A DNA stretch of 64,000 nucleotides from a virus: IMG/VR virus record IMGVR_UViG_3300032236_000747, positions 248,001-312,000 of that record; one strand, written 5' to 3'. Under the pieces are notes generated by a model, which ran no database searches, was not told where the DNA came from, and saw only the letters and a program-made list of their open reading frames with translations. The position numbers and the translations under genes are program-made. Below, piece by piece: positions 15,797 to 30,803 of this stretch; the first letter of the stretch is position 1, and every line of letters starts with the position of its first letter.

Positions 15797-16375
15797 ATGA
15801 CGGAATTGATACTAGATAGAGCGGAAAGTAACACACAAAAAGCAGAAGCAGTTAGCAAACTGTTTACAATCGTATTAATGCTTTTGGGAGTATGGTTAAG
15901 CGTAGACATGCTTACATACGCCGTTCATCACAAACTAGAAACTGCAGAGGTTGTTGGAGACAACAGCGTGACAACAGCAGTAAGAGAAAGACAGTTAACC
16001 TGTCTAGCTAAAAATATATACCATGAAGCAGGATCAGAGCCATTTGAAGGTAAGGTCGCTGTCGCACAGGTAACATTAAACAGGGCTAACAACAGTCAGT
16101 TCCCTGGAGATGTATGTAACGTTATCTATCAAAAGAACGTTATCTACAGTAAAGTAATATGCCAGTTCAGTTGGGCCTGTGATAGGGATACCAGCGTCAG
16201 GCCTATCAACAAAGCCATGTACAATGAAAGCGAACTGGTTGCCCGCAAGGTGCTACTAGAAGGATTTAGATTGCCTAGTTTAAATCAAGCATTGTATTAT
16301 CATGCTGACTACATAGACCCGCACTGGCGTAGAGAACGTATTACGTCAATCGGACACCATATCTTTTACAAATGA
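15797..16375 (+). CDS. SleB-type cell wall hydrolase (endolysin), 192 aa
   Basis: The ribosome site AAAAGGAGGTC precedes ATG. Residues 21-41 are a hydrophobic span (LFTIVLMLLGVWLSVDMLTY) acting as a signal-anchor, so this may be a SAR-type endolysin. The hydrolase domain begins near 65. IYHEAG at 74-79 contains the presumed catalytic Glu77, followed by GKVAVAQVTLNR at 85-96 and CQFSWACD at 122-129. These are the signature blocks of the Hydrolase_2/SleB family, which cleaves peptidoglycan glycan strands. The holin-like gene overlaps its stop. Confidence 0.9.
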   Translation: MTELILDRAESNTQKAEAVSKLFTIVLMLLGVWLSVDMLTYAVHHKLETAEVVGDNSVTTAVRERQLTCLAKNIYHEAGSEPFEGKVAVAQVTLNRANNSQFPGDVCNVIYQKNVIYSKVICQFSWACDRDTSVRPINKAMYNESELVARKVLLEGFRLPSLNQALYYHADYIDPHWRRERITSIGHHIFYK

Positions 16376-17180: not shown

Positions 17181-17546
17181 ATGAGAGCACAAGAGTTTAC
17201 CAAAGAAGCAAGAGATCACGGACCAGGGCACAATAACATGATGCCCACGGAAGATCATTCTAGTCATCGCATGACTAACAATACAATGCCATATGAAGAA
17301 AGCCGTGTTGAAGCATTGAGAAAAAACATTGCTACATTGGAACAGCAAATCCTAGAAAAGACCAGCGCCAAACTTTGCCGCAGTCCTAAGAAGCTAGGCA
17401 ACAGTGATCAAAGCTCTTGTGTAGCACAAGGTCTACGTGCTCACACCAGTAAAGGCAAAGGCCACACAGATGGCAAAGGTCACTACCTAAAAGGTCATAG
17501 AGCTAAAAGTACTAAGTACGGCGGCGACGTTCCTGATTACAGTTAA
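17181..17546 (+). CDS. Late protein with MRxxEF leader and His/Lys/Gly-rich tail, 121 aa
   Basis: The leader MRAQEFTKEARDHGPGHNNM resembles T4 capsid-targeting peptides (MKTYQEFIAEA), with a possible cleavage near EA. The C-terminal half (CVAQGLRAHTSKGKGHTDGK, then HYLKGHRAKSTKYGGD) is basic and His-rich, as expected for a DNA-associated internal head protein. The function is inferred from this pattern only. Confidence 0.65.
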   Translation: MRAQEFTKEARDHGPGHNNMMPTEDHSSHRMTNNTMPYEESRVEALRKNIATLEQQILEKTSAKLCRSPKKLGNSDQSSCVAQGLRAHTSKGKGHTDGKGHYLKGHRAKSTKYGGDVPDYS

Positions 17547-17577: not shown

Positions 17578-18039
17578 ATGATAACCTTAGAGGAATTCCA
17601 CTCTTTTATTGAAAACGATATAGTATATCTCCAGAACTTACTATACTACATTGATGCTCAAGGGCAAGAGCATAAAATCAACAACCTGGGTCATCTTCAT
17701 TCCTTGTACGGGAATACCATAAAACTAGAAGGTGCCGAGAAATACAATAAAGCTCTCTTTGACTATTGTCAATCTTTCAAACACTCGGGTCCAGTAACTT
17801 GCCACATCTTTAGATCCTTCGCAGGCTCACATAGTTTTCCAACCCATGTAGATCCAGATGATGTACACCTTAGGTTGCTATATGGACAGAAAACTATTAT
17901 ACTAGAAGATACAGAACATATTTTGAATCCCAACGACTGCTTATACATACCTGCCAATACTCCCCATCGTGCAATAAACAACGAAGAGTCTTTGATGTTA
18001 AGCATAGGACTTGAAAAGTTTCTTATTGATAAACTATGA
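17578..18039 (+). CDS. Cupin/JmjC-like Fe(II) oxygenase candidate, 153 aa
   Basis: The HxD...H metal triad of cupin-fold 2-oxoglutarate oxygenases is visible as H90-V-D92 and H130 in IPANTPHRA. Further family marks are DVHLRLLYGQKTIIL (95-109) and NPNDCLYIP (117-125). At 153 residues it is a minimal double-stranded beta-helix domain. It begins the modification cluster and overlaps the first radical SAM gene by ATGA, so the two are probably coupled. Hydroxylation of a peptide or protein side chain is the likely reaction; the substrate is unknown. Confidence 0.65.
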   Translation: MITLEEFHSFIENDIVYLQNLLYYIDAQGQEHKINNLGHLHSLYGNTIKLEGAEKYNKALFDYCQSFKHSGPVTCHIFRSFAGSHSFPTHVDPDDVHLRLLYGQKTIILEDTEHILNPNDCLYIPANTPHRAINNEESLMLSIGLEKFLIDKL

Positions 18040-19094
18040 ATTGGCTTTTCTATTTAAAAACTACAGAGACCTGTAATCTCAACTGTAAACATTGTTTCAC
18101 CAATGGAACCAGCGGAGCAAAGATCTATTGGAACAAAGAAAAAGTCAGTAAGTGGTTAAAGGATTTTAGAGAAGAAGTTGGTCCTGGGCATTCAGCTCAC
18201 TGTGAGTTTCATGGGGGAGAGCCATTCCTTGTTGATGTAGAAGAAATGAAACAAGTATACGATGAATGTAAAGACCTTTGGAATAATATGTCATGGGGTG
18301 TAACAACTAATCTCGTATTCAAACTATCTCCTTCTATCATAGAGTTTATTAAAGGGCCCTTAGACAATAGATTAGCTACGAGTTGGGATCCTGATATTAG
18401 ATTTGCTAATCCTAAACAGTATGACCTTTGGAGGAACAATGTTAGGACATTGATAAACGAAGGAGTTACTCTTAAATTGTTTGTCAGTGTTACAAAAGGC
18501 ACAGTTAAAATGAACCCCATTGATCTCTTAGAGTGGATTAGAGACCTGGGAGTGAAAGAAGTAAGTTTTGAGAGATTAACGCACAACGGTAGCGCAAACA
18601 AAAACCCTGATATATTTCCCAGCAACGTAGAACAAGATGCTTGGTTCCTTAGAATGCATCAACAGAGCGAACAGGCAAACGCTAGAACTTGGTTTAATAA
18701 CGAGTTTCTAGAAAATGTTTATACAAAGTTTGAATCCGGATTTAACAAAGCAGGAACTTTCTGCAGGGACTGTGAGGAAAAACTCTTTACGTTAAACGCA
18801 GATGGTTCTATTGCCGGATGCCCAAACAGTGCTCCGGAACAGTATTTCGGACATATAGATACTAGAATACACGATCTACTCAAAGACCCTGCTAGAATAA
18901 ACAACATAGCCTGTGAAAGATCTAGAGATCCTAGGTGTTATTCCTGTGATGTTTTTGAGTTTTGTGGAGGAGACTGCCATCAGTTATCCTGGGAAGACGA
19001 TCAGTGTGGTGCACCTAGAAGCTTGATGCAGTTGTTAGCAGGTATAAATACTCTAAGAAGTCAAAAGATCTTTAAAATAGAGGAAATTAAATGA
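18036..19094 (+). CDS. Radical SAM enzyme with SPASM domain (1 of 5), 352 aa
   Basis: The CxxxCxxC cluster motif is C13-NLN-C17-KH-C20. EFHGGEP at about residue 57 is the SAM-binding GGE motif. A C-terminal Cys-rich SPASM region (about 243-324: C243, C246, then GCPNS, CYSCDVFEFCGGDC and C324) should hold auxiliary [4Fe-4S] clusters. SPASM enzymes typically modify ribosomally made peptides (thioether, C-C links, epimerisation). It lies directly upstream of the CHxS-tail protein with a 4-base overlap, making that protein the prime substrate candidate. Confidence 0.9.
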   Translation: MNWLFYLKTTETCNLNCKHCFTNGTSGAKIYWNKEKVSKWLKDFREEVGPGHSAHCEFHGGEPFLVDVEEMKQVYDECKDLWNNMSWGVTTNLVFKLSPSIIEFIKGPLDNRLATSWDPDIRFANPKQYDLWRNNVRTLINEGVTLKLFVSVTKGTVKMNPIDLLEWIRDLGVKEVSFERLTHNGSANKNPDIFPSNVEQDAWFLRMHQQSEQANARTWFNNEFLENVYTKFESGFNKAGTFCRDCEEKLFTLNADGSIAGCPNSAPEQYFGHIDTRIHDLLKDPARINNIACERSRDPRCYSCDVFEFCGGDCHQLSWEDDQCGAPRSLMQLLAGINTLRSQKIFKIEEIK

Positions 19095-19750
19095 CAACGT
19101 TAAATAATCCGGTCACCTCCCAAAATATTGTTGATAGATTCTACGATTACGTAAACTATACAGCTAGTCAAGGAGTCACTTGGGGTAGTGATGTTATTCC
19201 AGCGGGCGATACTAGCCCAGTGAGCGGAGTTGCTGCATCAGTACCTATTATAGCCAGCACGGATTTTGCAGGGACAGTGGCCGCGGTTACTGATATTGCT
19301 ATTAACGGAGCAAGTATTGGATCATCCGGTGGTACTATTACAGCCTCTGACATTTGGTCGGTGCTGGTAAATGAAACAAGCAGAGAAACACATATTAGAT
19401 ATGTTCAAGCAATTTGCGGAGTAACGGGCACTGGTGGAAATGCTGGTACAAGATTGAGAAACACAACCACTAACAGTGATCCTAATCGTGTTCAAGACGT
19501 ATATAATCTTACAAGGGTAGCTAATATGAGGGCAGGTTTTGCAAGTGGCATAACCAATCCAGCTGCTTCAACCTACTCATTAACCGCTGGAAGTACTATT
19601 AGTTCAACTAACCTTGAATCTTTTTTCAGTGCTTGTCGAGACGCTTATAATAACGCTGCTAGAGCCACTGGATCAGCATATGTATATCGTACTAATGTAT
19701 GCCACGCTAGTTGCCACTCTAGTTGTCATAGTTCAAGAGGAAGAAGATGA
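19091..19750 (+). CDS. CHxS-tail protein, candidate substrate of the radical SAM enzymes, 219 aa
   Basis: Residues 1-200 look like a folded Thr/Ala/Gly/Asn-rich domain (MTTLNNPVTSQNIVDRFYDY at the start), like many phage virion proteins. The last 16 residues are CHASCHSSCHSSRGRR: three C-H-x-S units (C204, C208, C212) and a basic end. The only other Cys are C109 and C182. The HxS pattern recalls the His-Xaa-Ser substrates of radical SAM maturases, here with Cys added. Coupled ATGA overlaps join it to the SPASM enzyme and to the next gene. A metal-binding tail without modification is the main alternative. Confidence 0.75.
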   Translation: MTTLNNPVTSQNIVDRFYDYVNYTASQGVTWGSDVIPAGDTSPVSGVAASVPIIASTDFAGTVAAVTDIAINGASIGSSGGTITASDIWSVLVNETSRETHIRYVQAICGVTGTGGNAGTRLRNTTTNSDPNRVQDVYNLTRVANMRAGFASGITNPAASTYSLTAGSTISSTNLESFFSACRDAYNNAARATGSAYVYRTNVCHASCHSSCHSSRGRR

Positions 19751-20436
19751 ACATCATCGAAACAACAGCACCTATTTCTATAGATAATTTAAAGAAGTAT
19801 TTTGAAGATAAAGAAACTGTCTTTTTAATCGATTATGATAACTCTAATCTTAAAGAAGAAAAACTATTAACTTATCTTAGCAATCTAGAAATACCCTGCG
19901 ACCTAAACATAACAGACAATGATTATCTCTTACCGTTGATAACCTGTTATTTAAAATCTCCACATATGGTAGAAATCCCGTTTCTTGAAAGAATAACAAT
20001 TATTCTTCTCTTGCAACATAAAGGCATTTTAGAAAAACAAGATCTTACTATGTTAGAGTCTTTTAAAGAACTATTAGATCTATGGTGTGAAAGATTAGAT
20101 TCTCTAACATTATATAACTTATATTGTGTTAATGAAGACAATGATTATTTTAAAAACTGGGTATTAGAAACCGGTATAAAGGATGACACAACTGATATGT
20201 CAGGTTGTAACTTTGTTAATCTTTTAAAATATGAAGATTTCTATCGATTCTATCAAAAGAGCAGTTCGACTCCTAAATATTTTCCCTACTACTTTGACGA
20301 GTATGTATTCAAAGGGAAAAACTTATACAGTTATTGGGCCAACAATAACAACCCTATGTTTCTTTTAACATTTGGAATAGCTTCCGGTGTATTTGAACAA
20401 TTCAAGGAAAATTTAAATGCTACACCTATTCAATAA
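19747..20436 (+). CDS. Unknown protein of the modification cluster, 229 aa
   Basis: Overlaps the CHxS-tail gene by ATGA. It is acidic and largely helical (ISIDNLKKYFEDKETVFLID, then TLYNLYCVNEDNDYFKNWVL) with few conserved-looking motifs. I recognise no family. The position suggests a partner of the substrate protein, such as a peptide-recognition or carrier protein, but nothing in the sequence proves it. No known leader-binding (RRE-type) fold could be confirmed by eye. Confidence 0.6.
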   Translation: MNIIETTAPISIDNLKKYFEDKETVFLIDYDNSNLKEEKLLTYLSNLEIPCDLNITDNDYLLPLITCYLKSPHMVEIPFLERITIILLLQHKGILEKQDLTMLESFKELLDLWCERLDSLTLYNLYCVNEDNDYFKNWVLETGIKDDTTDMSGCNFVNLLKYEDFYRFYQKSSSTPKYFPYYFDEYVFKGKNLYSYWANNNNPMFLLTFGIASGVFEQFKENLNATPIQ

Positions 20437-21520
20437 AGTCTATCTTGCTAGTGATTATACACTATGGAATATTCATGCTGACAAAATATTAATAATATCA
20501 GATCATTATGCCACTGAAGATACAAAAGGATATCAAGGATCTACCTATGTAGGTAAAAGTTTATCAGATGCTTTTGGAGAGAAAACACTGCATGATGTTT
20601 TATCAGAGTTTGCCGCAGGCACTGATAAAGTTATTATCTATGCCGATAACATAAGTTTTGCTGAAATCGCTGCTTCGTGGTTTAAGTCGATTACGCACAT
20701 GGATCAAACAGCCTACGATACATTTGTTGACTGTTATATCTATAAAAGGTCTGTTACTGGGCAAGATGTTGGTCAACTATCTGTTTTAATGAAACAACAG
20801 TTAGAGTCAGCACCGGCATATGATTTTTCTAATATAGCAGTTGATATGCCCTATGAGTTTTTATTAGCATCTGCTTTGGTCAATAGAGACTTTTCTAAGA
20901 AATCTCAGTTTTTAAAAACACAAGCTAAGTTTGTTAAGAGATCATATGAACACCTTATTCTAGAAGCACGCAGGCATTTGGACAACTATATATTAGATGC
21001 TAATTTACAAACAGCTCTAGGGGGCTCTGGTAAAACAATACAAAACTACAAAGAACTACCAAGCCTAGCTGCTTATAAAGAACCTTATTTTAAAGAAGCT
21101 GTTCCTGGGCCAGTAGTTCATAGCTATATTCCCGGACAAGGATCTAAGATCGATATTAGCCAAGGGTCTGATAGCGATATTGATGACCTATGCAGGGTTA
21201 CAAATATCATAAACGTTTCTATAGCAGGTATGACTATTTCAACAGGGCCCAATGGACCGGTTGTTTCTTCTAGTCCATATACAAACAACCTAAGAGCCGA
21301 TGATGGTAATGGTTGGAAATATCTAGCAGCAGCTAGAAGAGGCGAGCTAACCTCTGAAGAGTCTGATGCATTGTTAACTGAGTTCTTAGAACCTAGAGTG
21401 GCATTTGAGTTAGTCCCATTGGATCTATCACAAACTATTGTCATGGTACTACTCCCTTATTTTAAATCTCTTGCTAATAGCGGAAACACTACTGAGCTCA
21501 CTAAGTTTACACTAAAATAA
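20417..21520 (+). CDS. Unknown cluster protein, paralogue A, 367 aa
   Basis: The N-terminus MLHLFNKVYLASDY, with TDKVIIYADNISFAEIAASWF near 69-89, matches the 26608-27714 protein (MMIHLFNQVYLSYDN and NKVVIYASRDSFLEILVLWF) at equivalent positions. A first domain of about 120 residues is therefore shared, and the remainder diverges. No catalytic motif is seen. Each paralogue sits directly upstream of a radical SAM gene, suggesting a dedicated partner or substrate-presenting role. AAGGAAA precedes the ATG inside the previous gene. Confidence 0.65.
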   Translation: MLHLFNKVYLASDYTLWNIHADKILIISDHYATEDTKGYQGSTYVGKSLSDAFGEKTLHDVLSEFAAGTDKVIIYADNISFAEIAASWFKSITHMDQTAYDTFVDCYIYKRSVTGQDVGQLSVLMKQQLESAPAYDFSNIAVDMPYEFLLASALVNRDFSKKSQFLKTQAKFVKRSYEHLILEARRHLDNYILDANLQTALGGSGKTIQNYKELPSLAAYKEPYFKEAVPGPVVHSYIPGQGSKIDISQGSDSDIDDLCRVTNIINVSIAGMTISTGPNGPVVSSSPYTNNLRADDGNGWKYLAAARRGELTSEESDALLTEFLEPRVAFELVPLDLSQTIVMVLLPYFKSLANSGNTTELTKFTLK

Positions 21521-21521
21521 T

Positions 21522-22550
21522 ATGTCCTTGTATGATGTAATAGACAGGAAGGTCATAGACTATGCTGAGATTGTTGTCTGTTTATTTGATCATTGTAATC
21601 TACGCTGTGCTTTTTGTCCACAACATCACGATGATTTATTAGGTGCCTCTAGGGATGAAATATTAGCCAAGGTTCCGGGCATTGTTAACTGGATTAATAA
21701 TAATACTAGATCAAAGTATTTTAAAATTCATATAATGGGCGGCGAAGTATTTGAAGATATCTTCATAGAACAAGGCTTTATTGAAATCTATCAGGATTTT
21801 ATAGATCAAATAAAAAATAGTGTTCCAAAAGAAAAACACGTTGAAATAAACTTTATAACAAACTTAGTTTTTCAAAAACATCAAACAGTTTTAGATTTTC
21901 TTAATATCAATAACCTAAAAGTTTCAACATCTTACGATCCTCGTGGTCGATTTACTGCTCAACAGTTTGAAACATTTAAAAATAACATAGAGATATTTAA
22001 AGACTATATTAGTATGTTTTCTGTAGTAACTACTAGACAAAACATTGAAGCAGTTATAAAAGGCGATAGTTATTTTGATTATCTATATCAAAACTTTGTT
22101 TGTGATTGGGATTCATTTATACCAGCAATAGCAGAAACAGCCGAAGCAATGATGCCTAGTGAACAAGAGTTATTAAACTTTTATAAACATCTCGTTGACC
22201 ATTATCCGGACTGTATTAATATAGAGTATTTTACTGGTAATGAAAAAGAAAATCACATGAGCTGCACAAGGGGAAACAGTTATACTATTCTAAGAGATGG
22301 TTCTATGCCCGGTGGATGCAGTGGTGCGGTGTTTCTTAAAGATGCTGAAACAAAAAACTTAGAATCAACTATCATATTACATAAGTTTTTTGATACCTAT
22401 GATTGTTTCTCGTGTGAGTATTTTAAGAAATGTCCTTTTACCTGTTTTATAAAAAATGACTACAAAAAAATTAAACGAGATCTCGGAAGCTGTGTTTTTA
22501 AAGAAACCTTTCGATACGTCGATTCAAAACATAAAAGTATCATTCATTAA
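21522..22550 (+). CDS. Radical SAM enzyme with SPASM-like C-terminus (2 of 5), 342 aa
   Basis: The cluster motif is C25-NLR-C29-AF-C32. HIMGGEV near 71 is the GGE motif. The C-terminal Cys set (CTRGNSYTILRDGSMPGGCS, then CFSCEYFKKCPFTC and a last Cys) fits a SPASM/twitch auxiliary-cluster domain. It follows paralogue A by one base. The next gene (B12-type enzyme) overlaps it by 95 bases, which is unusually long. Confidence 0.88.
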   Translation: MSLYDVIDRKVIDYAEIVVCLFDHCNLRCAFCPQHHDDLLGASRDEILAKVPGIVNWINNNTRSKYFKIHIMGGEVFEDIFIEQGFIEIYQDFIDQIKNSVPKEKHVEINFITNLVFQKHQTVLDFLNINNLKVSTSYDPRGRFTAQQFETFKNNIEIFKDYISMFSVVTTRQNIEAVIKGDSYFDYLYQNFVCDWDSFIPAIAETAEAMMPSEQELLNFYKHLVDHYPDCINIEYFTGNEKENHMSCTRGNSYTILRDGSMPGGCSGAVFLKDAETKNLESTIILHKFFDTYDCFSCEYFKKCPFTCFIKNDYKKIKRDLGSCVFKETFRYVDSKHKSIIH

Positions 22551-24255
22551 TCCACCTCACGCCGATTGGTGTTTGGCAAACAATGCTGCTTACTTAATGT
22601 TTCAATCGCATTACAGCAGACACGGCAAAAATAATAAAAAGGTAGAGTGGATACCGGCTCCTTATCGATTTGATCAGTATGAAAATGTTCAACAAATATT
22701 AAACGAAGTTGGGAAAGCTGATGTGTATCTATTTTCTAGTTACATATGGAACTATGATGTATGTGATAGTCTCGCCAGACTAATCAAAGATACCTATCCT
22801 ACAAGCATCTGCGTATTAGGTGGCCCGCAAATAGGAACTAACGAACCAAAGTTCTTAACATCTCGTTCTATGTATGATTATATACTGCGACCAACCAAAC
22901 CCGGTGAAGTATTTGTACAAGAACTTATTGATTCGTATTTCGATAACTTAGGATATCCTGATGTAGAAGATATTTCCTGGGAACTACGTAGCGATAAAAA
23001 ATGCGATCAGTTTATGCCAGATTATAGTGTGTACGAAGAACATATAGAATATCTAACCAATGCTAGAGAACATGCTCGTGAAAATGATCTAGAACCATTT
23101 TGTATTATTGAAACAACTCGAGGATGTCCTTATGCGTGTACCTATTGCGAATGGGGCGGAGGAATAGACAGTAAAATCTATAAGAAGCCTATTGATGTAG
23201 TAAAGCGTGATTTATTAGCATTAAAGAAAGCAGGCTATCGAGATGTTTACCTGACAGATGCTAACTTCGGAGCATTTAAAGATAGGGACTTAGAAATATT
23301 TAAGTTTGCGTGGGACAATGAAATAAATCTAACTGACATCAGTACTATGAAAAGCAAGGATTTGAAAAGAAGAACAGATCTAGTCGATGCATGGTTTAGC
23401 GTTGTAGGATCCGGGCCAGAAAAACACAGCCCTGTTATAACAGGAAGAGAAGGCGGACAAGCTCTTGTTGCCGGACTAGGTGAAATGTCAGCTTTATCAA
23501 ACGATGTTTCTTATATTAGTATTGTACCAACAGTATCTATTCAAAGTATCAGCGATGAAGCTATGAAAGTAGCTAAACGTGCTGACCTATCCTTTCAAGA
23601 TAAAATAAAACTCAGCGAGCATATAAACAATCAGTGCCACAAAGAAGGATATCCTGTTCCTGCTATTGAGTTAATAATGGGAATGCCAGGCAGTACTATT
23701 GATGATTTCTATGCTGAATGGGAAATAATGTGGAACTTCAAAGCATGGACTAGTTATCGACACGATTATATGTTCTTGCCTGACTCCGAGTTAACTAATC
23801 CAGAATATTTAAAAAAGTATGATATTACTCTAGTAGAAGTTTACAGTGATCTAGTAGACGAGTTTGGTATTGATAATCAAAATAGTCTTTATAAAAATAA
23901 ACGTAGTTATTTTAAAACTATATCGTCTTGCTTCTCTTATACATTCGACGAAATGTGTGAAATGTGGTTCATGAATCTAGCTGAGAACAGACTATTAGAA
24001 AAAATATATCCAATGTTTGAAAATGATATTTTACCGAGCGAGTTTGGAAAAATGTGTTATCGAATATTATCTCAAACAGATGAGTTTGCTGTTATCCATA
24101 AACAAATACAAGACCTACTAGATCCAAATACATCTCCAAAAAATATCAAAAGATTGAATGGTAAACTAAGAAACTTTGCTATTGATGACCTCACTGATAA
24201 GTACAGAACTATCATTGTTTCTCAAATATACAAGGAGATGTTATGCATCAACTAA
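22456..24255 (+). CDS. B12-binding-domain radical SAM enzyme (3 of 5), 599 aa
   Basis: Residues about 25-160 look like a Rossmann B12-binding domain (IKVSFINPPHADW, YLFSSYIWNYD, ICVLGGPQIG). The radical SAM motif is C224-PYA-C228-TY-C231 preceded by IIETTRG, typical of class B methylase-like enzymes. The usual DxHxxG cobalamin-ligand motif is not visible. Such enzymes methylate unactivated carbons or rearrange side chains. The start is uncertain: a GTG near 22491 would shorten the 95-base overlap. Confidence 0.85.
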   Translation: MTTKKLNEISEAVFLKKPFDTSIQNIKVSFINPPHADWCLANNAAYLMFQSHYSRHGKNNKKVEWIPAPYRFDQYENVQQILNEVGKADVYLFSSYIWNYDVCDSLARLIKDTYPTSICVLGGPQIGTNEPKFLTSRSMYDYILRPTKPGEVFVQELIDSYFDNLGYPDVEDISWELRSDKKCDQFMPDYSVYEEHIEYLTNAREHARENDLEPFCIIETTRGCPYACTYCEWGGGIDSKIYKKPIDVVKRDLLALKKAGYRDVYLTDANFGAFKDRDLEIFKFAWDNEINLTDISTMKSKDLKRRTDLVDAWFSVVGSGPEKHSPVITGREGGQALVAGLGEMSALSNDVSYISIVPTVSIQSISDEAMKVAKRADLSFQDKIKLSEHINNQCHKEGYPVPAIELIMGMPGSTIDDFYAEWEIMWNFKAWTSYRHDYMFLPDSELTNPEYLKKYDITLVEVYSDLVDEFGIDNQNSLYKNKRSYFKTISSCFSYTFDEMCEMWFMNLAENRLLEKIYPMFENDILPSEFGKMCYRILSQTDEFAVIHKQIQDLLDPNTSPKNIKRLNGKLRNFAIDDLTDKYRTIIVSQIYKEMLCIN

Positions 24256-24749
24256 AAGAAAACATTTACAAATACGGATATCATCAACTATTTGAACCTA
24301 GTGCCCTTGATTTAATAAAAGCAGACGAGTTTCGTTTACTCAATGTAGAAGAGCGCAGTAGAGATAATATGATAAAAGATGTACCAACAGAGTTATCAAA
24401 TAGATTAACTACAGTTGCTCATTATTTTAAAACCAAATATATAGATCCTGTATGGGAGAACTCTAGATACAATAAATTTACTATCTGGGAAGGTGTTGAT
24501 CGTGACAACCAAGGATGGCATACTGATTTCTTTGAAGGTTATGATTTATTCTTTCTCTACTACCTTGATGACACATTTGAAGAATCTGGAGGGTATATTG
24601 AGTTTAAATGGGACAGCGGCGAAAAACGTTATCAACCAAAAGCAGGAGATCTGTTTTTAGTTAACAACCTACGTGGCTTCTGGCATCGTGCTGGCAGTTC
24701 TACTATATCTCGTCGTGTAGCAAGTTTTGATTTTAACGCAGGTATCTAA
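24243..24749 (+). CDS. 2-oxoglutarate/Fe(II) oxygenase, prolyl-hydroxylase type, 168 aa
   Basis: The metal triad is H93-T-D95 and H148, with the 2-oxoglutarate-binding Arg in SRRVASFDF (R157 or R158). LFFLYYLDDTFEESGGYIEF and PKAGDLFLVNN give the typical strand order of P4H-like domains. The gene overlaps the B12-type enzyme by 13 bases. A peptide or protein side chain in this cluster, or the collagen-like fibre at 52279, are possible substrates. Confidence 0.85.
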   Translation: MHQLKENIYKYGYHQLFEPSALDLIKADEFRLLNVEERSRDNMIKDVPTELSNRLTTVAHYFKTKYIDPVWENSRYNKFTIWEGVDRDNQGWHTDFFEGYDLFFLYYLDDTFEESGGYIEFKWDSGEKRYQPKAGDLFLVNNLRGFWHRAGSSTISRRVASFDFNAGI

Positions 24750-24750
24750 A

Positions 24751-25056
24751 ATGCAACAAGTTATTAATGATCTATTAGAAAAGAAGAAAATCCTAGGAGA
24801 TGAAAGAGACCTATGCGCTGAAGTTTATAATGTGTGGATTACTAGGATGTACGAGTGCCAGGACGATCCTGTTAAGTATGAAATGTATATAAACATGATA
24901 CAGGTTATGGAACCATATGGCCAAATGGTTAAAGAGGAAATAAGAGAAATAAATCGTCAGCTTTGTGAAATAGAAGGTGTAGATTCTATAGACGAAACTC
25001 CTTATCTTAGAGAATGCAACAACAAGTATGGAAACGCAAAACCAAACGATATCTGA
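24751..25056 (+). CDS. Small helical cluster protein, 101 aa
   Basis: ATG at 24751, one base after the oxygenase stop; an upstream in-frame start within the oxygenase was rejected. The N-terminal helices (MQQVINDLLEKKKILGDERD, then MVKEEIREINRQLCEIEGVD) look coiled coil. The C-terminus (ECNNKYGNAKPNDI) is polar with one Cys. It could be a scaffold or a small precursor. No family is recognised. Confidence 0.55.
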   Translation: MQQVINDLLEKKKILGDERDLCAEVYNVWITRMYECQDDPVKYEMYINMIQVMEPYGQMVKEEIREINRQLCEIEGVDSIDETPYLRECNNKYGNAKPNDI

Positions 25057-25552
25057 TATTGGCAACGATTTTCTTATTAATGGATTTGCTACCGGTCTAG
25101 TTCCTCTTGATTTATTAACTCCGTTTAATAACACATATTTTCCTGATTGTAATATAGACTGTGATTATGTGTTTCCGGAAGAAGTTATAAATTTATTAAC
25201 ACCTGTGTGCGATTGGTTAAAAATAAACTATCTAGAAACATTGTTTGCTGACTATAGAGTACATTACATAGGAGCATGGAGTGGAGTCGATGAAGGCTCA
25301 GCAAGATGGCACAACGACTGGATTGATGGCGACCCATTTAATACAAACATTCTTGTATATCTAGATCCTCCATTAGAAAACTATATAGCAGTTAGAAATA
25401 TACTTGATCCGGACAGCGAAACTAAGATATATCCAGAAGTTGGGCAGTTTGTTTGGATCAATCAACAAAAACACATACAACACAAAGCACAACATACTGC
25501 TGGCCCTAGAAGATTATTGTGCTTTGAATTCTTCGTACCTAACCTAACCTAA
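25028..25552 (+). CDS. 2-oxoglutarate/Fe(II) oxygenase-like protein, 174 aa
   Basis: The HxD is H95-N-D97 in SARWHNDWIDGDPF. The distal His is H152 or H156 (QHKAQH), followed by GPRR with R161 or R162 as the likely 2-oxoglutarate ligand and CFEF as the last strand. NILVYLDPP and VGQFVWIN correspond to core strands. It overlaps the preceding small gene by 29 bases. It is the third oxygenase-type protein of the cluster. Confidence 0.75.
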   Translation: METQNQTISDIGNDFLINGFATGLVPLDLLTPFNNTYFPDCNIDCDYVFPEEVINLLTPVCDWLKINYLETLFADYRVHYIGAWSGVDEGSARWHNDWIDGDPFNTNILVYLDPPLENYIAVRNILDPDSETKIYPEVGQFVWINQQKHIQHKAQHTAGPRRLLCFEFFVPNLT

Positions 25553-25556
25553 CAAA

Positions 25557-26648
25557 ATGGATCTTATCATTAAACCTACAGAAGTATGTAACTTCAAATG
25601 TACATTTTGTTCATCTACAAAAATCAGTGAAGAACATAGTTCAACACTAGACTTAGATTACGTGTTTAAGTTTCTAAAAAGATTTCCGGAAACTAATACA
25701 ATAATAGTCAATGGTGGAGATCCATTGATGATGCCTGTTAACTATTATTGGGAGATTATTAACTGGCTAGATCAACACAACTACGATCACACTACTCTTA
25801 GTCTTACAACTAATCTTTGGCCATTTTATAAAAATCCAGATAAATGGATTGAGCTATTCAAACATCCAAGGGTTGGCGTTAGTACATCGTTCCAATATGG
25901 TAACGGCCGTCTTAAAGGCAACTATGAAGTCTTTACAGAAGATGACTTTTGGGCAGCATCGAATATGATGCTAGATAAAATAGGTTATCGACCTACCTTC
26001 ATTGCTGTTATCACAGAAGAAAACGAAGACAGCATTATTAAAACAGTAGAGCTTGCTAAGAAGATGGATGTTGTTTGTAAAGTAAATTACGGAATGGCAT
26101 CCGGAGACCAGTCAACTCCATATATGTTATCAAAGATATATAAGGCCTATATAGATATATGGAAGGCGGGACTTTATCCCTGGGAACATAATACGCAGCA
26201 GATGATGACTCGATTAAAAGGAACAGCGACAATCTGCCCACAGGCCCGAAACTGTGATTCGCATATAAGAACACTTCAACCAGAAGGAGATTACTATTCC
26301 TGCGGTGCATTCGGCGACGACAAGGAAAAACCTATTAACTTTGAAGAAGAAATGAGTGGTAAGTTTTTTACACCGTTGTCTGATGACTTTGACATTGCTA
26401 CAATGAAACAATCCTGTTATACTTGTGCTATGTTTGAAATCTGTAATGGTTGCAGAAAAACCGTTAAAGATCAAAAGAGACACGGAATGGTAGAAGAACA
26501 TTGTAAGATGATGAAGTCTCTCGCTCCTGATATAATAACAGCCAATGGAGTTGTTAGGGAAGTTACCCCTTATGTTAAAGAAAGCAATCAAAGAATAATA
26601 AGGATAGTTGATGATACATTTGTTCAACCAAGTTTACCTATCTTATGA
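25557..26648 (+). CDS. Radical SAM enzyme with SPASM domain (4 of 5), 363 aa
   Basis: The cluster motif is C11-NFK-C15-TF-C18. VNGGDPL near 51 replaces the usual GGEP, a common variant. The C-terminal Cys set (ATICPQARNCD, then EGDYYSCGAFGD, CYTCAMFEICNGCRKT and EEHC) fits a full SPASM domain with two auxiliary clusters. The order HxD-oxygenase then SPASM enzyme repeats the arrangement at the start of the cluster. Confidence 0.9.
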   Translation: MDLIIKPTEVCNFKCTFCSSTKISEEHSSTLDLDYVFKFLKRFPETNTIIVNGGDPLMMPVNYYWEIINWLDQHNYDHTTLSLTTNLWPFYKNPDKWIELFKHPRVGVSTSFQYGNGRLKGNYEVFTEDDFWAASNMMLDKIGYRPTFIAVITEENEDSIIKTVELAKKMDVVCKVNYGMASGDQSTPYMLSKIYKAYIDIWKAGLYPWEHNTQQMMTRLKGTATICPQARNCDSHIRTLQPEGDYYSCGAFGDDKEKPINFEEEMSGKFFTPLSDDFDIATMKQSCYTCAMFEICNGCRKTVKDQKRHGMVEEHCKMMKSLAPDIITANGVVREVTPYVKESNQRIIRIVDDTFVQPSLPIL

Positions 26649-27714
26649 TAATATCATAGATGAAAACATTGATAGAGTAGTAATATCAGAAGAGTTTGGT
26701 AAACATATGTTGCAGTATGCCGCTAGGCCTTCCCACGGGGCATTGTTGTATGCTGGCATGGATATTAATGACCTAGCAACAAATGGTATTAGTGATTTCT
26801 TTAACAACCTAGCAACGCATAAAAATAAAGTTGTTATCTATGCTAGTAGAGATTCGTTCTTAGAAATATTAGTGTTATGGTTTACTTCTCTATTAAAACA
26901 TGCCGACAAAGATACAGTACAAACATTGTGTAAGGCTTTGATCTTTAGGATAGTTGTGTTTTCAAATGGAAGATTTATCACACGCAGCGATAAAAACAAA
27001 ACTGAATATTCGCCGCAATACTACGAGTTCCCACAGGCCGACTTTGATTCATACTATAAGCTAGCACTTGAGTCTAACTTAGATCTAGCACCATTTCTAA
27101 ATAACATAGGTGTTGAGTATATGCTAGCAACATATCTTTACAGCGGTCATTATAAAGAAGAACTTAAATCTTTATTAAAACCCTTGATAAGAAAAGATAT
27201 GATAAAATATCTCTACGAGCTCAAAGAGATATTTCTTGTACATTTAATGACTCCTGCCTTTACAAATAAGATGTCATTAACTAAAGATTATGATTTTAAT
27301 ACATTTACTGATATTATAAATGATGATTCTAGATTTGCTAAAACATTCATGTCTACTCAAATATGGGAAACTCCTTTTATGTCAGCATATGGAAACCATG
27401 ATATCTTTTTAGAAAATATAACTCCAGAAGATATTCAAGTGTTTAAAGACTTTACTCATATTGCTGGAAACACATGGATAGAAGAAAGTGTTTATATATT
27501 TGTTAAATCAGATATTAATAAACTAGACTTTCTAGCTTGTTTTTTAGATTTTACAGATGATCTACTCGATAAGATTATAGAGGCTGAATCAACATTTGAG
27601 CACTCAGCTGGATCTTTCTTTTCTATAGACGTGACTACTGTTAATCATTATCTTGTACAAGGTCTTTTAAAAAATAGAAACAATAAAGAATATCTAAGAT
27701 TGTATTCAATATGA
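26608..27714 (+). CDS. Unknown cluster protein, paralogue B, 368 aa
   Basis: Paralogue of the 20417-21520 protein, with the same length (368 versus 367) and N-terminal pattern HLFNxVYLxxD ... KVxIYAxxxSFxEIxxxWF. It overlaps the SPASM gene upstream by 41 bases and the radical SAM gene downstream by ATGA. The conserved length and position suggest a radical SAM partner. No motif pointing to an enzyme is visible. Confidence 0.65.
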   Translation: MMIHLFNQVYLSYDNIIDENIDRVVISEEFGKHMLQYAARPSHGALLYAGMDINDLATNGISDFFNNLATHKNKVVIYASRDSFLEILVLWFTSLLKHADKDTVQTLCKALIFRIVVFSNGRFITRSDKNKTEYSPQYYEFPQADFDSYYKLALESNLDLAPFLNNIGVEYMLATYLYSGHYKEELKSLLKPLIRKDMIKYLYELKEIFLVHLMTPAFTNKMSLTKDYDFNTFTDIINDDSRFAKTFMSTQIWETPFMSAYGNHDIFLENITPEDIQVFKDFTHIAGNTWIEESVYIFVKSDINKLDFLACFLDFTDDLLDKIIEAESTFEHSAGSFFSIDVTTVNHYLVQGLLKNRNNKEYLRLYSI

Positions 27715-28643
27715 ACATTTCTATTAACCCTTGGTACTACTGTAACTTTCGCTGCGATTTTTGTTATCTAACCACGCAACAGTTATCAGATAAGCAGTTA
27801 CTAGATCTCGATGTACTAGAAACACGTCTAAGAGAAATACCCTCTCCTATTGATCAGGTAGATCTATACGGGGGTGAGATAGGTCTTCTTCCTAAAGAGT
27901 ATTTTCAAAGACTCAAAGAAATCTGTAAAAGATACACTGATAAAATAAACATTATTACAAACTTATCTACAGTAAACAGCATTACCACAGATGAAGATTG
28001 CTATATATCAGTTAGCTATGATTTTGACTGTAGGGAAAATCACGAAATAGTTTTTAAAAATATGATGCTATTAGAAAGACCATTTTCTATTTTAATGCTA
28101 GCTGGAGATAAACTAATAGAGAAAGATGTTAGCCATATGATTAATATGTTTAATCTTATAGGAAACTTGGAATCAGTTGAGATTAAACCTTACAGTAGCA
28201 ACCAAGCTAATCAACAAACGGTTACTTTTAAACAGTTTGAAGATTTTATAATAAAATGGATTGATAGCCCTATTAAGAAAAACTTTTCTTTTATAAACGA
28301 GTTCCTAATAGAAGATGTATTAGATAAAACTAGAAACAGTTTTTCCGATGATCACATTTACATAACTCCTAGTGGTAGATATGCTGTTTTAGAATTTGAT
28401 TTAAATGACAATGAGTTCTTTCTTGAATATGATACATTTCAGGACTACCTAAACTGGTGTTCGATTGAAAAGAAACGAACACACAAGAACTCCTATTGTA
28501 ATCAATGCGAGTATAACGGTCATTGTCTATCTGAACACCTGAGAGATGTCAAAGATCTAAATAATAGTTGTAACGGATTTAAACATCTGATAGATTGGTA
28601 TAAGAATGAAAGACTGGAAGATTCGACAAGAAGTTTATCATAA
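27711..28643 (+). CDS. Radical SAM enzyme with short Cys-rich tail (5 of 5), 310 aa
   Basis: The cluster motif is C11-NFR-C15-DF-C18. DLYGGEIGLLP near 51-61 is the GGE motif. The C-terminal Cys (YCNQCEYNGHC, then SCNGF) could hold one auxiliary cluster, like a twitch domain. It is smaller than the SPASM members. It overlaps paralogue B by 4 bases and the next small gene by 38. Confidence 0.85.
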   Translation: MNISINPWYYCNFRCDFCYLTTQQLSDKQLLDLDVLETRLREIPSPIDQVDLYGGEIGLLPKEYFQRLKEICKRYTDKINIITNLSTVNSITTDEDCYISVSYDFDCRENHEIVFKNMMLLERPFSILMLAGDKLIEKDVSHMINMFNLIGNLESVEIKPYSSNQANQQTVTFKQFEDFIIKWIDSPIKKNFSFINEFLIEDVLDKTRNSFSDDHIYITPSGRYAVLEFDLNDNEFFLEYDTFQDYLNWCSIEKKRTHKNSYCNQCEYNGHCLSEHLRDVKDLNNSCNGFKHLIDWYKNERLEDSTRSLS

Positions 28644-29010
28644 ACTAAATCGTTCACACACGGATGATTTAAACTCAGTTGATATAATAAACACTACCGA
28701 AACAGTAAAAGATGCTGTAAGATATTTTCACGAAACAAACATTGGATGGATATATCCTTCAAAGAGTTATATGGTTGCTATATGTTATGCTAGATGGCTA
28801 GGCGAAAACTTCGGCGGTGATCCTTACGAATATCTAAATGATCCTGATTTGCTTTATGGAAACGATCCTTATTTTATTCCCTATAGAGAATCAAAAAAAG
28901 AATACGATCAAATTTTGATTGATATTAATGGTTGGCAGTTTTCCGAAACTTCAGGTATGGTGCCCGATGTTAAACAATATTTCCTAGAGGAGTTCATGAT
29001 AGATGTATGA
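28606..29010 (+). CDS. Unknown cluster protein, 134 aa
   Basis: Begins MKDWKIRQEVYHKLNRSHTD and contains ETNIGWIYPSKSYMVAICYA, then LGENFGGDPYEYLNDPDLLY. The aromatic and acidic soluble protein has no family I recognise. It overlaps both neighbours (38 and 8 bases), so it is part of the same translation-coupled string. Confidence 0.6.
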   Translation: MKDWKIRQEVYHKLNRSHTDDLNSVDIINTTETVKDAVRYFHETNIGWIYPSKSYMVAICYARWLGENFGGDPYEYLNDPDLLYGNDPYFIPYRESKKEYDQILIDINGWQFSETSGMVPDVKQYFLEEFMIDV

Positions 29011-29629
29011 TGATTTACACAGCCCTTCGGGCAAGGGCAATAGCTGGGGCACTGGCAATAAACTAACCAACGGAGTTAACTTACTGTGGCCTAATCAAGT
29101 TCTATCCGGTAATATAGAAGAAAAGGATTTGTTAGATAAGTTTTCTCAAACTATATTCGAATCTGTAGATTTTTCATCTAATAGATTTTCGGAGTTTGAT
29201 CCGTTAATAGAAGGTCCAGAGATTTGTCAAGAGTTTAAAAATAAAGTTGTTGTGCCCTGCTTTGAAAAGTATCTTAACAACATGGGGCTAAATCTACAAT
29301 CCTTTGGAAACTATAGACTTAAATCTTGGATAACCGGATCAAAAGAAGGATACTCAATATCAGCACACAATCATAGCGGTGCTAGTTTAAGTGCTGTGTT
29401 TTATCTTTTAGTAGGGAATAGAGTAACCGGAGGGGACCTTGTAATAATAGACCCTAGGACCAATGCTAACCGAGGATACCTAGATGCATTTAAACCATTT
29501 TTTGAAAATAAGGTCTTTACACCGCAGTCTGGGGAATATATAATCATACCCGGATATCTTTATCATCATACTACTACATTTTATGGATCACTGAGGCTTG
29601 CTATGCCGGTAGATTTGTTTTTGAGTTAA
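29003..29629 (+). CDS. 2-oxoglutarate/Fe(II) oxygenase-like protein, 208 aa
   Basis: AHNHSGASLSAVFYLL (121-136) is the H-x-H/G-x-x-LS-x-V-F/Y-YL motif of a phage-abundant oxygenase group annotated as putative 2OG-Fe(II) oxygenase. GGDLVIIDPR (143-152), PQSGEYIIIPGYLYHHT (174-190, distal His) and GSLRLAM (195-201, R198) complete the pattern. It is the last gene of the cluster and meets the convergent IscA gene with a 4-base overlap. Confidence 0.8.
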   Translation: MYDDLHSPSGKGNSWGTGNKLTNGVNLLWPNQVLSGNIEEKDLLDKFSQTIFESVDFSSNRFSEFDPLIEGPEICQEFKNKVVVPCFEKYLNNMGLNLQSFGNYRLKSWITGSKEGYSISAHNHSGASLSAVFYLLVGNRVTGGDLVIIDPRTNANRGYLDAFKPFFENKVFTPQSGEYIIIPGYLYHHTTTFYGSLRLAMPVDLFLS

Positions 29630-29955
29630 ACTCTAAAACTTTCGCCGCAGCCACAACGGTCGCGTTCATTAGGATTTCTAAACTCAAACCCTTCATTTAA
29701 TCCATTTCGAACATAATCTACAGTTGTTCCTAAAATATATGGAAGGTGTCTGGTGTAAATCTTGATTATGAAATCCGGATAGATAATGCGCTCTTCACTA
29801 GGGTCAAAGGAATCTGGATAGTTTAACCATTCTAAAGTATAAGCTAAACCACTACACCCTGTAGTTTTAACTCCTATCCTAAGTCCTACACTAGCTCCTC
29901 GTTTTATTTTCAACTGTTTAATCTTGTCTAGGGCTTGCTCTGTTAGTGTGATCAT
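29626..29955 (-). CDS. iscA: A-type Fe-S carrier protein (IscA/HesB family), 109 aa
   Basis: The three invariant Cys are C34 (TTGCSGLAYTLEW), C101 and C103 (DRCGCGESF). The length is normal for IscA (about 107). It receives and delivers [2Fe-2S] or [4Fe-4S] clusters. It is the only leftward gene in this part and shares its stop region with the last oxygenase gene. The spacing KRGASVGLRIGVKTTGCSGL is like IscA rather than ErpA. Confidence 0.9.
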   Translation of the reverse strand: MITLTEQALDKIKQLKIKRGASVGLRIGVKTTGCSGLAYTLEWLNYPDSFDPSEERIIYPDFIIKIYTRHLPYILGTTVDYVRNGLNEGFEFRNPNERDRCGCGESFRV

Positions 29956-30288: not shown

Positions 30289-30420
30289 ATGAAACTACGT
30301 AAACTAAGAAAAAAGATGTACAAGGCTATATTCAATCATGATGTAGCAAAAGAAAGAAAAACTTGGCTCAAGATTCTTAAAAAATCTATGAAGCACAAAC
30401 ACACCGCAGACGTTCAATAA
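30289..30420 (+). CDS. Small basic protein, 43 aa
   Basis: ATG at 30289 immediately after the secreted protein stop. It reads MKLRKLRKKMYKAIFNHDVA and ends KHKHTADVQ: strongly basic and helical. The stop overlaps the IscU start (TAATG). No family is recognised. It might bind nucleic acid or couple IscU translation. Confidence 0.55.
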   Translation: MKLRKLRKKMYKAIFNHDVAKERKTWLKILKKSMKHKHTADVQ

Positions 30421-30803
30421 TGGCATATTCGGATAAAGTAATAGATCATTACGAGAATCCTAGAAATGTAGGAAAGTTTGACATCGACGATAGTATAGGC
30501 ACGGGCATGGTCGGAGCTCCTTCTTGCGGTGATGTTATGAAACTACAAATCAAAGTAAATGAAGAAGGTATCATTGAAGATGCAAGATTTAAAACATATG
30601 GATGCGGTTCAGCAATCGCATCAAGCTCACTTATCACAGAGCTTGTCAAAGGAATGTCTCTTGACCAGGCGACAGCTATTAAAAACAGCGACATCGCCGA
30701 GGAGTTGGCTCTTCCACCTGTTAAGATTCACTGCTCAATCCTCGCAGAAGACGCAATCAAAGCAGCAGTAATAGATTATAAAAAGAAGAATAATCTGTTG
30801 TGA
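30420..30803 (+). CDS. iscU: Fe-S cluster scaffold IscU, 127 aa
   Basis: Full-length IscU with the three cluster-binding Cys C36 (APSCGD), C62 (YGCGSA) and C105 (KIHCS), plus D38 and H104. The chaperone-binding motif LPPVK is at 98-102. These are all hallmarks of the ISC scaffold that assembles clusters with IscS and passes them on through HscA/HscB. Here it stands without iscS, hscA/B or fdx, so host partners are presumably used. It follows a 1-base overlap from the small basic gene. Confidence 0.95.
   Translation: MAYSDKVIDHYENPRNVGKFDIDDSIGTGMVGAPSCGDVMKLQIKVNEEGIIEDARFKTYGCGSAIASSSLITELVKGMSLDQATAIKNSDIAEELALPPVKIHCSILAEDAIKAAVIDYKKKNNLL

Follow-up and report, generated by a model that had tools for sequence, protein, structure and literature searches.

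The window analysed here is a stretch of 64,000 nucleotides (nt), corresponding to positions 248001-312000 of the 354,680-base phage record IMGVR_UViG_3300032236_000747 from IMG/VR. At 17578-29629 it contains a cassette of 15 rightward genes (g1 to g15, Table 1), which are tightly packed, many of them overlapping by few to tens of nt; the GC content declines across the block from about 0.41 to 0.34. An earlier reading of the same DNA by a model (the original prediction) had counted 13 genes. This number was wrong; g4, g9 and g14 are also real and are conserved in 81, 16 and 53 loci, respectively. The five radical S-adenosylmethionine (SAM) enzymes named there were recovered as g2, g6, g7, g11 and g13, each with a CxxxCxxC motif and a PF04055 match, with the scores of g2 and g6 below the curated cut-off of the model. 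Beyond the cassette, the record has a single further radical SAM match, at a distant 88 kb. Three clear or likely SPASM domains had been claimed as well: g2 passes the cut-off of the SPASM model TIGR04085 (32.2 against 27 bits), g11 stays below it (21.9 bits), and for g6 and g13 the evidence is a Cys pattern alone. The one B12-type enzyme is g7, which resembles the KedN5 family (E 6e-26), yet scores far below the family cut-off; its true start, to judge from homologues, is probably downstream of 22456.

Four Fe(II)/2-oxoglutarate (2OG)-type oxygenases, g1, g8, g10 and g15, were likewise found as foreseen. The Pfam scores were 39.7 bits against a cut-off of 22 for g1 (JmjC_2/cupin), 38.8 against 27 for g15 (PF13759) and 25.6 against 27 for g8 (PF13640). 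The iron triad of the JmjC/2OG type in g1 (H90, D92, H130) is present in 100% of 159 homologues. The two paralogous proteins, g5 and g12, fall into one hidden Markov model (HMM) family, here called family A, and the Cys/His/Ser-tailed protein is g3, which ends in CHASCHSSCHSSRGRR.

Table 1. Features of the cassette in the window. Counts written as n/64 refer to the 64 related loci with enough flanking sequence.
Feature	Position	Strand	Evidence
g1, JmjC_2/cupin Fe(II)/2OG-type oxygenase	17578..18039	+	PF08007 E 4e-10; 62/64 complete loci
g2, radical SAM/SPASM enzyme, cassette anchor	18036..19094	+	TIGR04085; best NCBIfam PapB 5e-15, under cut-off; 64/64 loci
g3, CHxS-tailed protein, 219 residues, presumed substrate (fibre-tip)	19091..19750	+	tail invariant 83/83; AlphaFold2 fold
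tail codons (16 residues, CHASCHSSCHSSRGRR), presumed modification site	19700..19747	+	alignment columns; also located by pattern
g4, core protein, VFLIDYDNS...LLTYLSNLEIPCDL	19747..20436	+	64/64 loci; phrog_20767 (unknown function)
g5, family A, first copy	20417..21520	+	family A in 62/64 loci
g6, radical SAM with SPASM-like C-terminal Cys pattern	21522..22550	+	phrog_1802 E 5e-32; 62/64 loci
g7, B12-binding/radical SAM, predicted C-methyltransferase, accessory	22456..24255	+	KedN5, PF02310+PF04055; 25/64 loci
g8, 2OG-Fe(II) oxygenase	24243..24749	+	PF13640 2.5e-5; HxD...H...R kept
g9, small accessory protein, TTG start	24727..25056	+	16 loci
g10, 2OG-Fe(II) oxygenase-like	25028..25552	+	g8 family by iterative HMM; HND...H; without Pfam match
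g11, radical SAM with SPASM-like domain	25557..26648	+	PF04055 3.8e-11; best NCBIfam DynA 6e-15, under cut-off; 61/64 loci
g12, family A, second copy	26608..27714	+	one HMM family with g5; 17% identity
g13, radical SAM enzyme	27711..28643	+	PF04055 3.5e-8; 58/64 loci
g14, core small protein	28606..29010	+	phrog_20737 1.7e-56 (unknown function); 52/64 loci; all 7 phage records with cassette
g15, 2OG-Fe(II) oxygenase (PF13759 type)	29003..29629	+	PF13759 1.3e-9; 47/64 loci

Homologues of g2 were searched for in two collections. A tblastn search against 50,697 phage records matched seven, all of jumbo phages: Burkholderia phages FLC6, FLC8 and SURPRISE13, Agrobacterium phage Atu_ph07 (two records), Sinorhizobium phage Phosso and Pseudomonas phage pPa_SNUABM_DT01. 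Homologues of g4, g6 and g14 were found in those same seven records, and in all of them the gene 3' of the g2 homologue has a differing body and the identical type of tail. In IMG/VR, a profile of five g2 sequences matched 361 stretches, of which the best 80 were taken; beyond the window, 86 loci with a g2 homologue were thus available (6 isolated jumbo phages and 80 IMG/VR contigs). With iterative HMMs the conserved order g1-g2-g3-g4-A-g6-(g7)-(2OGs)-g11-g13-g14-g15 was obtained. Among the 64 loci with enough flank, g3 is present in all, as are g2 and g4, and 57 have one or more 2OG genes; the occupancies of the other genes are given in Table 1. Synteny of the neighbourhood was retained in both gene set and gene order. 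The outcome named beforehand as a refutation, enzymes of unrelated families lacking a common neighbourhood, was thus looked for and did not occur. Radical SAM, 2OG or cupin genes have been listed in passing for phages FLC6, S13 and RP31 (PMC8066314, PMC11898562, PMC5468394).

The C-terminus of g3 follows the pattern C-H-x-S-C-H-x-[SNA]-C-H-x-[SNA]-R-[GSA]-R-R-stop in all 83 complete proteins of cassette loci, and CHxxCH occurs in no other of the 4,712 open reading frames (ORFs) in these loci; for both reasons the tail pattern is not due to chance. In an alignment of 56 g3 rows, ten columns are invariant in the tail and none in the body. Proteins of the g3 type span roughly 100-360 residues. 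When g3 was used as a tblastn query against the phage records no match was obtained, owing to the divergence of the bodies and to the low-complexity filter of BLAST.

Structures were predicted with AlphaFold2 from alignments built from IMG/VR loci only. The body of g3 was modelled with confidence (predicted local distance difference test, pLDDT, 83; predicted template modelling score, pTM, 0.80), followed after the terminal strand by a low-confidence tail. Neither a fold search with this model (E ≤ 0.001) nor a sequence search gave a significant match in the PDB. Compared with viral models, it matched a 178-residue phage protein (E 1e-8) and gp170 of Atu_ph07 (E 2e-5) at 17-20% identity; g3 and gp170 thus share a fold at 17% identity. 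The model of g4 (pLDDT 91) had no PDB match at E ≤ 0.001 by sequence or fold, and a PDB sequence search with family A gave nothing significant. The g3 model also resembles three BFVD entries of Myoviridae sp. ctijX18 (A0A8S5USJ7, A0A8S5USV2 and A0A8S5USJ8; 504-660 amino acids (AA); E 0.001-0.02), which are possibly larger relatives of the presumed tip protein.

Clustering of the neighbouring genes revealed a tail-fibre gene whose C-terminal domain, termed FIBC (DLAEKY..DKEYPVGTVV...GRVPVRV...), is conserved and matches Peptidase_G2 slightly under the cut-off (E ~2e-5). Of 83 testable loci, 68 have the FIBC fibre gene directly 5' of g1, and in 66 of these the gap measures between -36 and +118 nt. 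At 26 other loci the FIBC fibre and the CHxS gene are 0-13 nt apart, and several of these have two short tail proteins in tandem. The linkage was also seen in a DNA-pattern scan for the tail alone, which is independent of g2 and gave at least 119 viral loci: in 118 of the 119 listed an ORF ends with the tail in frame, with slightly greater variation at the x and [SNA] positions, and 103 of these 118 carry cassette genes while the other 15 carry the FIBC fibre. Among the 50,697 isolated phage records, FIBC was found in 18 (15 Campylobacter phages, the two Atu_ph07 records and Phosso). In a second phage group (L090, L113, L121, L131, L153, L155, L172 and similar loci) one or two CHxS proteins of 124-140 AA follow the fibre gene; these phages also encode additional proteins, about 340-395 AA long, and weak radical SAM-like matches were seen for a few of these.

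For Atu_ph07 a virion proteome is available, in which most virion proteins fall into blocks, one of which comprises the coding sequences (CDS) 170-215 (PMC6102473). The g3 homologue gp170 stands at the start of this block; the numbering was confirmed via the portal protein gp198 and the prohead core protein gp204. The block boundary suggests that gp170 was detected in Atu_ph07 virions.

The cassette had been described as carried by a phage. Phages do carry it, and it is also chromosomal in Bdellovibrionota and Bdellovibrio-like bacteria. Matches to the tail pattern were found on 19 contigs of bacteria or archaea; many of these belong to Bacteriovoracaceae, Bdellovibrionaceae or Halobacteriovoraceae, a taxonomy from which a predatory lifestyle of these bacteria may be surmised. 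Several of the bacterial cassettes adjoin housekeeping genes (ribosomal protein S20, 3-hydroxyacyl-CoA dehydrogenase, methionyl-tRNA synthetase (metG), TldD (tldD) and cytochrome oxidase), and on a contig of 4,153,408 bases the cassette lies beside a 16S-23S-5S rRNA operon. A g2 orthologue is present in 13 of 129 genomes of one bacterial class. In a tree of 83 g2 proteins, bacterial and phage sequences are interleaved and at least five changes are needed; therefore, the cassette has moved between bacteria and phages. The bacterial tails differ (YCHGNFPPPCHGSRGRR, YCHTNVPTPPPCHASRGRR, YCHSNHCSHSNHGSRGRR and WCHSSHSSHSSHSSRGRR): the first CH and the final SRGRR are retained and the number of Cys drops. 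In several bacteria a prepilin, in most cases with the N_methyl motif, which carries a C-terminal Peptidase_S74 domain adjoins the g2 orthologue, and a 195-residue partner protein is found next to the bacterial cassette in 12 loci. At L228, L231, L233, L234 and L240 the prepilin-S74 fusion, an apparent chimera of pilin and tail fibre, is followed by this conserved partner; a relationship of the partner to FIBC is not claimed, as the hhalign probability was only 36%. One bacterial g3 homologue (L245:4310-4918) has, at its end, a single Cys and His-Ser-Ser repeated four times, which resembles the repeat of the His-Xaa-Ser system. The bacterial pattern matches L212, L213 and L219, which have no cassette gene nearby, were treated as chance.

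Taken together, g3 as the presumed substrate, with its link to the fibre, is well supported. We consider it likely that the cassette is a dedicated pathway which modifies the C-terminal tail of the fibre-tip protein g3 and that the finished tip contacts the Gram-negative envelope. Gene set, gene order, the invariant tail on one conserved fold, the linkage to fibre and prepilin-S74 genes and the chromosomal location in bacteria are observed; we infer a modification of the tail, the reactions behind it and the binding of the tip to the victim cell. In the proposed mechanism, g3 would be a structural protein located at the distal end of the tail fibre or close to it. Late in infection g2, g6, g11 and g13, with or without g7, would act on the 16-residue tail CHxSCHxSCHxSRGRR, joined by the oxygenases, g1 always and g8, g10 and g15 variably. 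The JmjC_2 family (PF08007) includes the ribosomal oxygenases of the MINA/NO66/YcfD group, which hydroxylate His or Arg; both residues are invariant in the tail, where hydroxylation of either is the predicted activity of g1. SPASM radical SAM enzymes cross-link or otherwise modify the side chains of peptides, and those of the cassette are predicted to act on the Cys-His units, by cross-linking or by another C-H modification; for g7, methylation is predicted. The proteins g4, family A and g14 would be partners, either non-enzymatic or of unknown role. The finished tip would cap the fibre and be the part that first, or irreversibly, touches the Gram-negative envelope; in Bdellovibrio-like bacteria the same tip would serve next to a prepilin-S74 fibre. 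A bolder version, which we hold tentatively and would not yet bet on, is that a 'warhead' common to giant phages and predatory-type bacteria has been exchanged horizontally, i.e. a chemically rebuilt, possibly reactive or metal-charged peptide tip at the end of a fibre or pilus which engages or breaches the Gram-negative outer envelope. In that case a virion tip shaped by radical chemistry would be seen here for the first time.

Several observations weigh against the modified fibre tip. The modification of the tail is predicted from sequence and gene context, a prediction that leaves g4, family A and g14 without a role. At 15 loci, including the window and the Burkholderia and Pseudomonas phages, no FIBC gene is directly upstream; the record of the window has three FIBC fibres, located elsewhere in it. 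Campylobacter phages CP220 (L252) and CP21 (L253) have the FIBC fibre alone, at a distance from radical SAM genes and with no adjoining cassette. The virion location of g3 is drawn from one block boundary, rather than from a list of peptides, in the Atu_ph07 proteome (PMC6102473). Finally, the bacterial CHxS proteins show, in the sequences read, no obvious secretion signal that would take them to the surface.

The original prediction had spoken of a 'RiPP-like or virion-protein maturation' pathway, RiPPs being ribosomally synthesised and post-translationally modified peptides. Its virion half is strongly supported by the neighbourhood, the invariant tail, the fibre linkage and the Atu_ph07 block. 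Its RiPP half did not hold as stated. In a classical RiPP pathway the tail, once modified, would be cleaved from g3 and released as a small bioactive peptide, acting as toxin, signal or superinfection factor. SPASM and B12 radical SAM enzymes together with 2OG oxygenases are typical of such pathways, the tail is C-terminal as a core peptide would be, and the closest NCBIfam models of g2 and g11 are peptide maturases. The pathways of PapB ranthipeptides, DynA dynobactin and the B12 radical SAM methyltransferases employ the same enzyme superfamilies, presumably also on a segment of a ribosomal peptide. However, the cassette enzymes miss all curated cut-offs of these maturase families by a wide margin, and their presumed substrate is a folded structural protein. 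The RiPP precursor layout of leader and variable core was not found in g3; its body is not a leader and varies on a conserved fold, and the C-terminus is invariant. Among the 15 genes there is no dedicated protease (leader protease included) or exporter, and a PqqD-like RiPP recognition element (RRE) gave no match in g1-g15 at E ≤ 0.1, a search in which divergent RREs would be missed and in which the g4 fold, unmatched in the PDB, has to be kept in mind. With the genes linked to fibre genes and gp170 marking a virion block, a released peptide appears unlikely. The His-Xaa-Ser (Hxs) system is similar in its paired radical SAM enzymes and its His-x-Ser repeat, and one bacterial tail reads WCHSSHSSHSSHSSRGRR; unlike Hxs, the cassette is linked to fibre genes. 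The scores stayed far below the cut-offs, at 29.2 of 370 bits for g2 with HxsB and 26.1, 15.1 and 13.5 of 267.9 bits for g11, g6 and g13 with HxsC, and HxsA (TIGR03979) had no match in this phage record.

A tip which binds metal without being modified is a rather improbable explanation. Here, the end of a trimeric fibre would hold the metal through Cys and His, much like the iron-loaded spikes of phages, and the enzymes would act elsewhere. The three Cys-His units fit zinc, iron or copper, and the bacterial tails retain His, with Cys down to one or two; but the full enzyme set accompanies the tail in 64 complete loci, the cassette has no other shared substrate candidate, and the conserved RxRR is not required to bind metal. 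It is still harder to see g3 as a chaperone or catalyst of fibre assembly which is not retained, like T4 gp38. The CHxS gene does directly follow the fibre gene in phages with tandem tail proteins, as such a role would suggest, but a protein of this kind needs no heavily tailored 16-residue tail, and the virion block boundary falls at gp170. T-even gp38 tip adhesins, which to our knowledge are not enzymatically modified, are likewise small proteins encoded beside a fibre gene and thought to cap the fibre. The gp38 of phage PP01 at the tip of the long fibre binds OmpC (PMC12892980). A gp38-like position beside the fibre gene was found across the loci (upstream of g1 or abutting the CHxS gene, as counted above), not in the window, and the g3 model matches no solved structure, hence no gp38 adhesin fold, in the PDB at E ≤ 0.001.

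Radical SAM and Fe-S genes of marine (PMC5332604) and Campylobacter (PMC2853527) phages have been treated as metabolic. Directly 3' of the cassette the window also has an IscA/A-type carrier-like gene (29626-29955, minus strand) and an iscU gene (30420-30803, plus strand), as would befit auxiliary metabolic genes altering host metabolism, and these may supply Fe-S clusters to the radical SAM enzymes. Both are absent from all other cassette loci within ~10 kb and were thus rejected as members of the cassette; an IscS-type aminotransferase (PF00266) was not found in the phage record. No metabolic radical SAM family matched above its cut-off, and the enzymes are strictly coupled to a structural gene whose tail is invariant, which makes a metabolic role a very poor candidate. 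The published phage genes of this type are listed singly or read as metabolic, with no substrate, tail or fibre link proposed. The closest counterpart on the bacterial side are the mosaic adhesive trimer (MAT) fibres of Bdellovibrio, S74 group (PMC10769870), which are likewise phage-like fibres with an S74 chaperone on predatory bacteria. In the cassette loci, by contrast, S74 is fused to a prepilin and lies beside a radical SAM cassette, and the MAT paper contains neither the word pilin nor radical SAM. A cassette or fibre-tip system of this kind was not found in the literature searched, a scope outside of which bioRxiv and most subscription papers fell, so that a prior description is possible.

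If the reading of a modified fibre-tip protein is correct, tailoring by radical chemistry would be added to what is known of host recognition by phages. A function would also be found for the radical SAM genes, perhaps along with isc genes, whose arrays in jumbo and marine phages are puzzling and have hitherto been read as metabolic, and viruses and predatory-type bacteria would be linked via a common attack-surface device. Isolated phages which carry the cassette (Phosso, Atu_ph07, FLC6/FLC8/SURPRISE13 and DT01) make the reading directly testable.

Some further observations concern other phages and the surroundings of the cassette. CP220 and CP21 belong to a phage group known for 11-12 unexplained radical SAM genes; these phages were considered as cassette carriers and rejected, the FIBC gene having no cassette beside it. 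Upstream of the cassette, a small protein with CRSxKxLGxSDxSSCVxQGLRAHxSKGKGHTDG is encoded at 17181-17546, and a gene at the same position in L031 shares this motif. A cell-wall hydrolase (PF07486) is encoded 5' of the cassette at 15797-16375, with a similar gene upstream in L015 and L031. At 52279-59205 the window encodes a 2308-residue tail fibre with collagen repeats and a C-terminal Peptidase_S74 domain.

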